This document shows, piece after piece, positions 27,435 through 32,963 of a stretch of DNA of 64,000 bases. The notes beneath the pieces are model-generated. The model had not been told where the DNA came from. It did no database searches and saw only the letters and a list, made by a program, of their open reading frames with translations. The DNA is from Robertkochia marina (GTDB lineage Bacteria; Bacteroidota; Bacteroidia; Flavobacteriales; Flavobacteriaceae): NCBI RefSeq assembly GCF_004799345.1, contig NZ_SSMC01000003.1, positions 434,001-498,000 of the forward strand. The letters are read 5' to 3'. The position numbers were made by a program, and so were the translations under genes. Every line of letters starts with the position of its first letter. Position 1 is the first letter of the stretch.

Positions 27435-27472
27435 TACCCTTTGGGCTCAAGCCCAAAGGGGTAGTAGTTGTT
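27435..27472 (-). repeat. Rhs hinge remnant (fifth copy)
   Basis: On the minus strand it reads EIP..NNYYPFGLEPKG followed by a TAG stop, a truncated copy of the NNYYPFGLxHKGYN hinge. In this copy the core has become a perfect palindrome, ccctttgggct / agcccaaaggg. No toxin-coding frame follows it; the next gene is the DUF6624 gene. Confidence 0.8.
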
Positions 27473-27539
27473 CTTTTTGGGTATTTCGTGTTCGGTTAAG
27501 ATCAATATTCTTTTCTTAAAGCTCGATTAAACTGAGGTG

Positions 27540-28634
27540 CTAACCTTTTAAGATGGTTAATAATCTAAAATTAAGGTAGAGCTTTTCTTTTCCCACCTGT
27601 TCGCTTTTAAGAAAACCATTGTCTTCTAAATCCTTTAAATAATTCCCCACTGTTTTTAAACTTCCTAACCCTGCTCTTTCCAACTGGGTCCTCTTTGTAT
27701 AAGGTAATTTAAATAATATTTCCAATAGATCCTTAGAATATACTCTGGGAAGTTTTTCCTGAATTTCCAGCCCCATTTCATTCATCAATTTTTCTATATC
27801 CGCAATCTGGTTTCGCCCTCTTAATGCAGTTTGCTCTACCATATCCAACATATACAAAATCCAACCTTCCCAATGATGATCTTCAGTCACTTTACGCAGT
27901 TTAGCGTAGTATTGGTCCCGATGTTCAATAATGTAACTACTCAAATACAAGGCCGGAAGATCCAACAGACCTGTTAGTTTCAGGTATAATAATAGAATGA
28001 TTCTTCCTGTCCGTCCATTACCATCAAAAAAAGGATGGATCGCCTCAAATTGGTAATGTATAACTGCCATTTTTACCAATGGGTCAATACCATCTTCAGC
28101 ATGAATAAAATCTTCCAGGTTCTTTAATTTTTCCCTTATAATTCCCTCTCCCTCCGGTGGGGTATAAATCACTTTATTGGTAACCGGATTTTTCAACTGT
28201 GTGCCTGGTGCATTTCTAATACCAGATTCGTTCTCTTTAACGATTCGCATAATGGCTATAAAGAGATTCGTTGTGAGCAGAGGTTTACGTTTTATCTGAT
28301 CGAACCCATACCATAATGCATCTTTATAGTGCATTACTTCTTTTGTTGCCGGATTGTCATACTTTTTATCGGCAATGGAAGCTTTAAAAAGTTCGTCCTG
28401 TGTAGTTATAATATTTTCGATAGCAGAACTCGCCCGCGCTTCTTGTAAATTGATGGTGTCAATAAACAGTGTTGGATTAGGGAGATTAGTTACTGCTCCT
28501 TTTAACTCAGACAACGCCCTGCTTGCACTAATGGTCTTTTTAAGGATCGCTGTAGTTTCTAATTCCTCTGATGGAGGTAATAGGGGTAAATCGTTATAGG
28601 GTATCCCAGGATCGTAATCAATTTTGCTGCTCAT
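27540..28634 (-). CDS. Fic family protein (AMP-transferase type) with C-terminal winged helix
   Basis: 364 aa. N-terminal Fic_N region contains the inhibitory helix motif SSAIEN (S/T-x-x-x-E-N, about residues 70-75), so this is an auto-inhibited class II Fic. Catalytic motif HPFFDGNGRTGR around residue 197-208. The C-terminal ~70 residues (TKRTQLERAGLGSLKTVGNYLKDLEDNGFLKSE) look like a winged helix. Fic enzymes transfer AMP or a related nucleotide to a target protein. Three palindromes upstream suggest self-regulation. Located within the Rhs cassette island, between hinge remnants. Confidence 0.93.
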   Translation of the reverse strand: MSSKIDYDPGIPYNDLPLLPPSEELETTAILKKTISASRALSELKGAVTNLPNPTLFIDTINLQEARASSAIENIITTQDELFKASIADKKYDNPATKEVMHYKDALWYGFDQIKRKPLLTTNLFIAIMRIVKENESGIRNAPGTQLKNPVTNKVIYTPPEGEGIIREKLKNLEDFIHAEDGIDPLVKMAVIHYQFEAIHPFFDGNGRTGRIILLLYLKLTGLLDLPALYLSSYIIEHRDQYYAKLRKVTEDHHWEGWILYMLDMVEQTALRGRNQIADIEKLMNEMGLEIQEKLPRVYSKDLLEILFKLPYTKRTQLERAGLGSLKTVGNYLKDLEDNGFLKSEQVGKEKLYLNFRLLTILKG

Positions 28635-28644
28635 ATTGCATTTT

Positions 28645-28740
28645 TAATGAGGGCGTAAACTACCTCTGATATTAAAACAAGGGTAAATATATTAAAAAAT
28701 TACTCTCGTTTCATGGACGAGGGCAAAAATTACCCTTGTT
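28645..28740 (-). promoter_or_regulatory. Three operator-like palindromes upstream of fic
   Basis: Imperfect inverted repeats with similar half-sites (A[CT]RAGGGYAA-like): around 28648-28670 (atgagggcgta / tacctctgat), 28676-28710 (acaagggtaa / ttactctcgt) and 28717-28740 (acgagggcaa / ttacccttgt). They begin 14 bp before the fic start codon. Fic here has a predicted DNA-binding winged helix, so autoregulation is possible. Confidence 0.55.
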
Positions 28741-30540: not shown

Positions 30541-31543
30541 TATTGATTATTTCTTGCATGTGACTTACCTATATCTATCGAGCGTTGAGTCAATTTGTCC
30601 TCACCATATTTAGAAATCAAAAGGGCTGTACCAGTTCCAAGTATGGGATTTGCTATCGTGAAAAAGCCAACTCCAACGGTTAGTAAACCAGTTTTAACTT
30701 TACTATTTCCTGTTAAATTATATGCTCCGTAACCAAATTGAACCACTGGTTCCATACCAGAATTTTCAGCAACTACACCAGCAGCAAAATTTCCCGCATC
30801 TCTTGGAGATGCATATTTTCCATATAAAAGTGATCCGTTTTTAATTTTACTTTTTAAGTCCCATTCACCTCTAGTCCCAGCCTTTTGTACATATTCGAAT
30901 GCAGAGGGATCCTTTGATGTAATTGATTCAACCTTTTCTGTTAATTCTGTTGATTCATAATCTATTTTTATATCTCCGGCCGTAACCTCTCCCGTACTAT
31001 GGTAAAGGTTTTGATTTGCGAAACTAAGGGAGTGTAAGGATTCGCCCATTTTCTCACCTCCTGCAGAGGTATTTTCTGAGGTATAGCTTTCTTCCAAGTT
31101 AGTTTTAGCTTCATCTCCCTGACCTTCATGCCTATACACACCTAAATCTCCATCATCGTAAACTGCAATAACATTCCCATCTTCATCTGTATGCGTTGAC
31201 ATGGGTGCCATCCCATCAGGATCGATGAAACGAATAGGATTATCAAACGCGTAGTTATACGGGGAATGCCGGCGCATTTGTTCAGCCAGGGGATCCAGGT
31301 TCATCCACCGTCCCAAGGCGGGATCGTAGTTCCGGGCGGTGATGTCGTACCAGCCTAGCCCTAGTTCGGATTGGAGTTCTTTCCCCCCCCAAATTTGCGC
31401 TGTTCGGCCTTGTCGTTGCCCAAGGAGCTGGTGAACTCGTTATACCCTTTGTGTTCAAGCCCAAAGGGATAATAGTTGTTTGTCACAGGGGGGGGGCGGA
31501 AGATTCTATTATTGGTATAACTTAACTGCACGTTCCTAAACAA
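30540..31543 (-). pseudogene. Orphan Rhs C-terminal fragment (cassette B) with toxin-44-like tail, frameshifted
   Basis: The N-terminal part (31543 to ~31391) reads NVQLSYTNN ... NNYYPFGLEHKGYNEF ... QRKFGG and then shifts out of frame at an 8-G run (31383-31390). The other frame (from 31316) reads the rest: GRWMNLDPLAEQMRRHSPYN, IDPDGMAP, then the tail. Two G fewer, or one more, would restore the frame. The tail (KYASPRDAGNFAAGVVAEN ... VVQFGYGAYNLTGN) resembles polymorphic toxin type 44. A 9-C run lies at the hinge (31488-31496). Pseudogene or phase-variable switch. Confidence 0.75.
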
Positions 31544-31630
31544 CTACTATAATCGTTTTTCAAAGTGATAGAAATGGCACTTATTTAGCATTCTGATCTG
31601 ATTGCTTTTTGCTATGATCATCTAATTGAA

Positions 31631-32107
31631 CTATTCCATTTTAAATAGCAATGGAAAAACTGTTGGCTTTTCATTTTTTAACTTAAGCCATTCTTTTTCA
31701 CTTAATAGTAAAGTCTGAATTATAGCACTATCAGCTCTTTGGGGATAGCCATATCTCCTTACAATTCGAGCTTCAGAAATTTTATGATTCTCTTCAACCA
31801 AAACATAAAGTAAAGCGGCTCCGTTCACATCATGAACATCAACCTTCTCCCTAAATTCCAATAAAAGTAATTTTTGTATTGAATCCATACCAAATTTGTA
31901 ATTTGGATACTCGAAATTCACCGACAATTTGTTTCCCTTAGAATTCCAATAAAGGGTTGAATCAATACTCCCATTACTTTTAAAATGAGTTAGAATATGA
32001 TTATTAAATGCATCAAATACCTTCATCTCCTTATCCTTAAGATCCTGAGCACAACATTCAACTGCAAATGCAGAAAATAACATAAATACTATTTTTTTAA
32101 TAATCAT
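31631..32107 (-). CDS. Secreted protein with TonB-C-like domain, putative immunity partner of cassette C
   Basis: 158 aa; signal peptide with CC at its end (ECCAQ, possible lipobox). C-terminal ~65 residues (VNGAALLYVLVEENHKISEA ... ADSAIIQTLLLSEKEWL) follow the pattern of TonB C-terminal domains used as stand-alone periplasmic proteins in Bacteroidota. Overlaps the metallopeptidase toxin frame by 11 nt. Likely protects the periplasm from that toxin; unproven. Confidence 0.6.
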   Translation of the reverse strand: MIIKKIVFMLFSAFAVECCAQDLKDKEMKVFDAFNNHILTHFKSNGSIDSTLYWNSKGNKLSVNFEYPNYKFGMDSIQKLLLLEFREKVDVHDVNGAALLYVLVEENHKISEARIVRRYGYPQRADSAIIQTLLLSEKEWLKLKNEKPTVFPLLFKME

Positions 32108-32963
32108 AACCCAATCGTTTTTTTACTACATCAGCTCGCTTGTCATAGACAGCTTCCTCAACCCCTGGTTGAAAATGACCATGGGGCTTACCGTTGAGAT
32201 ATAGCACTACATGACCAAATTCATGAGCAACTCCAACGGCTCGATGATTTAAACTGCCATAACCATTAATTAAAACTTGAATATTCCCAGATTCCGAAGA
32301 TGAATTAACTCCAGGAATTAATGTTATTCCTAGGTTCCCTTGTATTGTAGTTCCCTCTGGGTTACCAAATAATCTATACATCTCCGCCTCTGCGGATGGT
32401 AAATCAGAAATGTTGAAGTCGACAGGAGTTTCAAAGTTTCTGTCGTATACCTTACCCTCTTTGTCTTTTACCTTATAATTTGTAGCCATTTTTAATTCTA
32501 CTATAGATTCATGACTTGCTATTTCATAAAGATCTTTTAATACAATATCATCTGAAATTTCTGCTTGATCCTTTATCGATTCAGGATTTATATAGCCATT
32601 TTTAACTTCAAATTGTACATTAGAGGATTCATCTAAAGCATGATATATGGCAAGAATTGCATCATTTGTTACTTTTAGACTATCGCCTTTAATCTCCTTG
32701 TAAATTATTGGATTATTTATTGTAAAACTGTAGTTTGAATAATTAGAATATTTCTCACTATACCTATCTATCTTATTAAACCTACCGATAGCGGGATCAT
32801 AATCTCTCCATTGAAAAGCATAGGTGTTTTTGTTAAGATCTTCTTCAAGCTCTTGTCCTTGGAATTTAATGAAATTATTTTCCTGGGTTGTAGCATTATT
32901 ATACCCTTTATGTTGAAGCCCAAAGGGATAATAGTTGTGTAGGGGAAGTATTTCGGAAAATAC
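32097..32963 (-). pseudogene. Orphan Rhs C-terminal fragment (cassette C) with metallopeptidase tail
   Basis: Open from a TAG at 32966-32964 to 32097, without an ATG until 32489. It reads FSEILPLHNYYPFGLQHKGYN, then EEDLNKNTYAFQWRDYDPAIGRF, then the tail. The tail holds AVGVAHEFGHVVLYLNG (HEFGH zinc-protease motif) and a downstream GVEEAVYDKRAD, compatible with a gluzincin-type third ligand. As an Rhs tip it could cleave a protein target. Separated from any Rhs core, so it is probably a silent cassette. Confidence 0.78.

Follow-up and report, generated by a model that had tools for sequence, protein, structure and literature searches.

We analyzed a 64,000-nucleotide stretch of the Robertkochia marina genome (Flavobacteriaceae; contig NZ_SSMC01000003.1, positions 434,001–498,000; hereafter the window, whose own coordinates we use throughout) that contains an array of orphan Rhs C-terminal tips, each opened by the same hinge sequence. 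The array comprises three tips with a small gene behind each, followed by two further genes, and all of these lie on the minus strand, as do the integrase and tRNA genes described below. A repeat search of the window recovered one family of 63-nt direct repeats, whose five copies share a strand and begin at 27423, 28801, 30041, 31431 and 32890. In the whole genome (3,579,269 bases in 11 contigs, reported as 100% complete), a degenerate hinge pattern allowing up to one mismatch matched at these five places only, always on the minus strand, and the reversed control gave no match, confirming the five copies in one orientation listed by a first-pass annotation made from the sequence. Hinge copies 1–3 (32898–32936, 31439–31477 and 30049–30087) each open a fragment matching Rhs_assc_core (TIGR03696), in frames of 281–299 aa with E values from 3e-9 to 7e-15; a conserved pre-tip motif opening C-terminal fragments is one mark of an orphan Rhs-CT/RhsI array. 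Copies 4 (28809–28847, NYYPFGPQHKCHY) and 5 (27434–27469, NYYPFGLEPKG and then a stop) are remnants recognized by both the repeat family and the hinge pattern. Stop codons lie 10–23 codons upstream of all five hinges, and the short stub before the hinge begins with S-E-I in copies 1 and 3 and with H-E-I in copy 5, which bears out, with one residue changed, the abrupt SEI start that had been reported for three copies. Because SEI followed by four codons and the hinge also occurs in Rhs frames of the relatives G290, G318 and G023, the stub looks like Rhs core sequence.

Tip 1 (32097–32963; TIGR03696, 41.2 bits) consists of hinge copy 1, an Rhs constant region and a C-terminal part with an HEFGH (HExxH) motif, and has no start before the hinge: no ATG, GTG or TTG occurs between its upstream stop and 32489. 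Tip 2 is split over two frames that diverge at a run of G near 31390, one piece carrying hinge copy 2 (31361–31543) and the main piece, out of frame with the hinge, carrying the constant region and an unknown C-terminal domain (30540–31391; 54.3 bits). Runs of 8 and 9 G/C nucleotides, of a kind that can slip, flank hinge copy 2 at 31383–31390 and 31488–31496, the former where the two frames part. Tip 3 (29272–30114; 36.1 bits), with hinge copy 3, a constant region and an unknown C-terminal domain, is the sole tip open from its own ATG to its stop. Directly behind each of the three tips lies a candidate immunity gene, judged as such by position: imm1 (31631–32107) overlaps tip 1 by 11 nt, imm2 (30118–30540) overlaps tip 2 by 1 nt and imm3 (28897–29268) follows tip 3 after a 3-nt gap, an arrangement that agrees with the first-pass annotation. 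That annotation had also called all three small genes exported; all three products have a hydrophobic N-terminus and, inspected by eye, imm1 and imm2 (the latter lipoprotein-like) look exported, whereas imm3 looks membrane-anchored. As they stand, one of the three tips and all three immunity genes are translatable.

Hinge copy 4 is followed by a gene for a SoFic-like Fic protein (27540–28634; NF046030, 433.6 bits, under the cut-off of 550) and hinge copy 5 by a gene for a DUF6624-like protein with a hydrophobic N-terminus (26423–27346; PF20329, 20.4 bits, under the cut-off of 27). The DUF6624-like protein shows a weak likeness to imm1 (34% over 53 aa, E 0.004) and is possibly an immunity protein whose gene was left behind after its tip was lost; its frame, like those of imm1–3, has no internal stops. 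Neither the tips nor the immunity genes matched a characterized family above cut-off, tip 1 having no Pfam family above cut-off despite its HEFGH motif, and the predicted structures of the tip 1 toxin part and imm1 have pLDDT below 50 at all residues.

The C-termini of the three tips show no similarity to one another, and the units resemble each other as DNA mainly in one place. Where the three hinges agree in residue, they use the same codon at 29 of 37 pairwise positions, against 15.9 expected from local codon use, and in the constant regions just downstream at 29 of 71, against 27.2 expected; the pairwise comparisons among three tips are interdependent. From tip to tip, the constant regions also have different best matches among the compared loci (G034 at 57% for tip 1, G021 at 92% for tip 2 and G023 at 62% for tip 3). 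Since the copies are alike as DNA mainly at the hinge, the comparison points to joining at that place.

No Rhs core was found anywhere in the genome, whether by the hinge pattern, by an 88-aa query spanning hinge to tip or by TIGR03696, which extends to the whole genome what had been noted for the array. Orphan tips usually, though not necessarily, lie downstream of a full-length rhs gene, and none was found for the window array. Among four other genomes of the genus, three had no match and G002 had one fragment containing a stop codon. TIGR03696 matched in 47 of 119 genomes in a sample of the family; besides R. marina, at least three genomes (G014, G330 and G427) have all their Rhs matches, among the matches listed, in frames of at most 418 aa, and tips without a full-length frame are not unique to this genome. 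A strain with one of these tips joined to a full Rhs gene, which the first-pass annotation had held would be decisive, did not emerge either: each of the three toxin parts was searched for in 348 other genomes of the family, and none turned up on a full Rhs protein. The toxin part of tip 1 had no match, that of tip 2 had one weak match, in a 359-aa frame of G508 to which the whole tip aligns at 30% over 277 aa, and that of tip 3 had one weak match, in a 143-aa frame of G384. Two Flavobacterium plasmids carry an Rhs match to tip 3; neither has an annotated primase module, and one has a tyrosine recombinase adjoining the match.

The array is carried by an integrative element of 8,934 bp at tRNA-Pro(TGG), as the first-pass annotation had supposed in calling it a tRNA-integrated island. 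Next to the tRNA gene (35172–35247) lies a tyrosine integrase gene (33742–35010; Arm-DNA-bind_5, Phage_int_SAM_5 and Phage_integrase domains), and beyond it the tip/immunity units, the Fic and DUF6624-like genes and a spacer. The element is bounded by an exact 16-bp direct repeat, whose proximal copy is at the 3' end of the tRNA gene (35171–35186) and whose distal copy, TGTCGGGGTGGCAGGA, is at 26237–26252; in 200 Markov simulations, the longest chance match was 14 bp and the mean 10.1. A hairpin terminator (26202–26236) stands at the far end of the island. At the orthologous site of the same-genus genome G001, the left neighbor gene (59% over 873 aa) is followed by this hairpin, contiguous with the 3' end of an intact tRNA-Pro gene, and no integrase match occurs in the 19-kb stretch around this empty site. 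The locus thus has what characterizes a tRNA-targeted integrative element, namely a tyrosine integrase beside a tRNA gene, flanking att repeats and a relative in which the site is empty. The island has a GC content of 0.379, against 0.438 in 20 kb of flanks.

The hairpin also adjoins the tRNA gene at the second tRNA-Pro(TGG) of G001 and in G002 and G004; these sites lie beside tRNA-Ser and so correspond to the other tRNA-Pro(TGG) locus. We rejected the idea that hairpin–tRNA contiguity marks an empty site everywhere, as G002 has a partial relative of the island integrase beyond the hairpin, near tRNA-Pro(TGG) (L057 7851–8417; 51% over 189 aa). The other tRNA-Pro(TGG) of R. marina is occupied by a second copy of the integrase, 95% identical as DNA, with other cargo and no hinge (L054 6378–9660; G000:C3:546.4–549.7 kb); a gene for a 208-aa protein of no Pfam family follows this copy, and immediately upstream is a partial tRNA-Pro-like sequence. 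The interval from integrase to tip 1 contains an interspersed repeat (33119–33300) with a GCAACG...CGTTGC hairpin; counting this copy, the genome has six matches to it, and at the second island one lies on each side of the gene for the 208-aa protein. Close to the two tRNA-Pro genes are short diverged repeats (window 20127–20683 and 25702–26077) with repeated matches in the orthologous stretch of G001. Among 80 named relatives of the integrase (38–52% identity), 57 are immediately preceded by a tRNA-Pro or tRNA-Met gene.

Arrays in relatives suggest how tips could come to stand in a row behind hinges. There, tips alternate with a recombinase module made up of an opposite-strand helix-turn-helix (HTH) regulator, a 511–567-aa protein (without a Pfam match in the two cases examined), two tyrosine recombinases and an ORF6N or toxin–antitoxin gene; a longer form of the module encodes CHC2 and Toprim primase domains in the first protein. 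These elements lie in frame within Rhs genes, at the hinge or at nearby constant sites, each with its own tip and small following gene, and the older tip stands displaced downstream of the element behind a copy of the hinge. Successive units in G021 are spaced exactly 7,170 bp apart. At its left end, the unit has an Rhs hinge that shares the reading frame of an Rhs stretch truncated at the contig edge; its right end directly adjoins the hinge of the displaced tip that comes next. Full Rhs frames of 1,306 aa and 1,547 aa head the arrays of G290 and G099.

The right end of the element, TTAAAAAAAAYGCRTAAAC, abuts the hinge in G021, G023, G290 and G099. Comparing left with right junctions places the crossover in the TTTGG of the Phe-Gly codons, to the right of the proline codon in G023 (where the left junction is at a contig edge) and to the left of the base after GGA in G021. 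From these junctions, we infer that one crossover is common to all these elements and that they move by hinge-specific recombination. Elements of the longer form sit at different constant sites, near YKYNGKELQ or GMYDYGAR. The hinge contains a dyad (CCCTTTGGG-N6-CACAAAGGG) that we do not claim as a recombinase site, because the mapped crossover falls in its left half. Hinge proline codons are CCC in 11 of 36 cases, against 429 of 3,573 in long open reading frames of the same loci, a comparison uncorrected for relatedness.

The primase-like protein of the module occurs in 25 of 296 genomes of the order. We took 20 regions around its gene from 18 of these 25 genomes, one of the 20 (G042) being already known to carry Rhs, and 18 of the 20 contain a match to the Rhs hinge region; the two without are L192 and L203, the latter a 4.4-kb contig. 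The closed genome G290 gives the fullest array, its 1,306-aa Rhs frame being followed by about 80 kb (G290:C1:2208880–2288718; L184, L220–L223) with ten copies of the primase-like gene, one of them shortened, and ten further Rhs frames; the array has five distinct tips in all. The right end joined to the hinge occurs in nine exact copies among 395 genomes (seven in G290, two in G099; none for the reversed control), and the right-end motif, matching in only two of these genomes, therefore fits one subfamily. Four of the 28 plasmid records with a match show further forms. Plasmid pAT2 of Aureibacter tunicatorum (NZ_AP025307.1) carries, in tandem, Rhs, a small gene, an HTH gene, a CHC2 protein gene, two tyrosine recombinase genes and an Rhs tip, and a plasmid of Aureispira sp. 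CCB-E (NZ_CP133672.1) has similar units, but with one annotated recombinase and an unnamed gene in second place. As in the window, an Rhs tip with a small following gene stands displaced, in the plasmids behind a full Rhs gene; unlike the window, the plasmids keep a recombinase module between tips, and the junction differs. Caballeronia sp. SBC2 has a pair of units at a spacing of 7,566 bp, each of which includes a XerC relative; they are alike in everything as far as YYKARMYSP, after which the tips differ. In Paraburkholderia PREW-6R (L229, NZ_CP155076.1), a primase/XerC module lies beside HYD1 and WHH toxin domains and genes of the contact-dependent inhibition (CDI) type, and the element class may serve CDI toxins too.

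Parts of this picture are already known from the accessible sections of earlier papers: orphan Rhs tips, also in a flavobacterium, and toxin-cassette islands at tRNA-Pro in Neisseria. The displaced tips of Jackson 2009 (PMC2935791) and Poole 2011 (PMC3150448) are, like ours, strings of coreless C-terminal fragments that begin with a conserved demarcating sequence and are followed by a small immunity-like gene. The window array differs from them in that no parent rhs gene was found upstream or elsewhere in the genome and in lying on a tRNA element, and its constant regions differ between units, whereas the available text of Jackson 2009 (PMC2935791) reports identical core parts per locus. Ornithobacterium hominis, also of the Flavobacteriaceae, has tip arrays with immunity genes, including a tip shared between species; those arrays are headed by a large rhs gene, and the sections available describe neither a tRNA island nor a tip-linked recombinase element (PMC6421346, PMC13183296). 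The maf islands of Neisseria share low GC with the island here, some lie beside tRNA genes (MGI-2 at tRNA-Pro), and their mafB-CT cassettes, some with a start codon and some lacking one, are each paired with an immunity gene; according to the same partial text, these cassettes follow a full-length mafB and belong to another toxin family (PMC4287609). As far as their available portions go, Jackson 2009 (PMC2935791) and Kirchberger 2017 knew of no integrase of the kind that the relatives' elements carry, and we found no description of tip-carrying recombinase elements in the open-access papers searched, a coverage that leaves out most subscription papers.

We consider it probable, at roughly 60%, that the array consists of displaced, hinge-opened tip/immunity units that probably stem from hinge-point insertion and were captured on a tRNA island, and that their value as cargo is probably immunity. 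The units would have arisen by hinge-point insertion in a former Rhs locus, would then have lost the recombinase modules and the core, and would have been captured by the island, with the immunity function being what is kept. That immunity would be the part retained is suggested by the three intact immunity frames and a fourth, weakly related one behind a hinge without a tip, when a single tip can be translated from its own start. Precedents include the orphan CdiI of E. coli EC93, which retains immunity (Poole 2011, PMC3150448, in the part available), and rAID genes, for which an immunity function is likewise shown in the accessible part of a preprint.

Several observations weigh against this account. 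The primase-like protein has no match in this genome, nor is there a primase-like gene or a recombinase pair among the array genes. The element right end at a hinge, searched for in the form of one subfamily, is absent from the genome, and the SEI stub stands in its place. The window hinges keep about nine upstream core codons, whereas in G021, G023, G290 and G099 the hinges displaced by elements are truncated at NYYPFG, and the route taken in the window therefore need not equal that of the elements in relatives; a different element subfamily, recombinases acting in trans and short-homology recombination are possible alternative routes. Several orphan tips in relatives retain 27–229 upstream codons, which fits ordinary recombination in the core, and the pair of tips 1 and 3, alone among the three pairs, shows a mild codon excess also downstream of the hinge (19 of 33, against 14.3 expected). 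None of the 80 named integrase relatives has a hinge downstream on the same strand (with at least 11 kb of downstream sequence for 62 of them and 1.1–7.9 kb for the other 18); we accordingly rejected tips as the usual cargo of this integrase, and they are at most an occasional one. A strict Bacteroidetes-type promoter pattern has no match in the island, and the toxicity and immunity of the tip/immunity pairs, their expression and the excision of the island are predictions from sequence.

The strongest competitor, which we regard as unlikely though a serious contender, is that the array is neutral wreckage, what is left of a decaying former Rhs locus, carried along passively by the island and without function today. 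The startless tip 1, the broken frame of tip 2 and the remnant hinges 4 and 5 are what such decay would leave, and the failure to find a core, or a promoter by the strict pattern, fits it as well. Decay would have had to spare the three immunity frames and the DUF6624-like frame, none of which has an internal stop, and tip 3, which runs open from ATG to stop.

The first-pass annotation had instead proposed a silent store of cassettes on which a full Rhs gene elsewhere in the genome would draw, with the hinge as the homology for recombination. Such stores are described for Proteobacteria in the available parts of Jackson 2009 (PMC2935791) and Poole 2011 (PMC3150448), and the likeness of the hinge copies at the DNA level is what such exchange would use. 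However, no full-length Rhs gene carrying the hinge, the recombination partner that this mechanism calls for, was found in the genome, an outcome that the annotation itself had named as refuting; the four other genomes of the genus offer a single stop-containing fragment, and the tips were not found on full Rhs proteins in 348 other genomes of the family each. We therefore think a cassette store improbable here.

Still more doubtful is an acquired-defense cluster of the rAID type, that is, a recombinase followed by co-oriented, low-GC orphan immunity genes. rAID clusters and polyimmunity loci near XerC/D recombinases (PMC12247911; PMC3482391) do resemble the window in setting a recombinase beside a co-oriented, low-GC array with likely protective genes, and here, too, a recombinase stands at the head of co-oriented short genes (GC 0.31–0.42) with a repeated sequence between units. 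In the portions available, however, those loci are described as immunity-gene arrays, whereas the window still has three hinge-opened toxin tips where a toxin-free array would be expected, and its recombinase resembles tRNA-adjacent integrases. Finally, that the fragments are pieces of one decayed Rhs gene can be dismissed despite their standing in a row on one strand, given the five hinge copies, the three unrelated C-termini and the constant regions whose best matches differ by tip, and their earlier description as separate tip/immunity units stands.

For polymorphic toxins more widely, the relatives' arrays and the window together raise a general proposal whose chances we regard as even: dedicated mobile elements, carrying an HTH regulator, a primase-like protein and one or two tyrosine recombinases, would move toxin tips by inserting in frame at conserved pre-tip DNA (the Rhs hinge at TTTGG, YKYNGKELQ, GMYDYGAR or, in Burkholderiales, YYKARMYSP), bringing their own tip and immunity gene and pushing the old pair downstream. 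Hinge-opened arrays would be the footprints of such insertions, able to travel alone on tRNA islands as portable immunity. The elements of relatives point to a class of candidate enzymes for this process, confine the crossover to a narrow interval and provide junctions that can be tested. In R. marina, tip/immunity units have apparently been able to leave the toxin gene entirely and, carried by a tRNA island, to reach a genome where searches turned up no Rhs core. There, the island would spread protection against the Rhs toxins of rivals rather than arm this strain, and protection without a weapon is plausible cargo for such an island.

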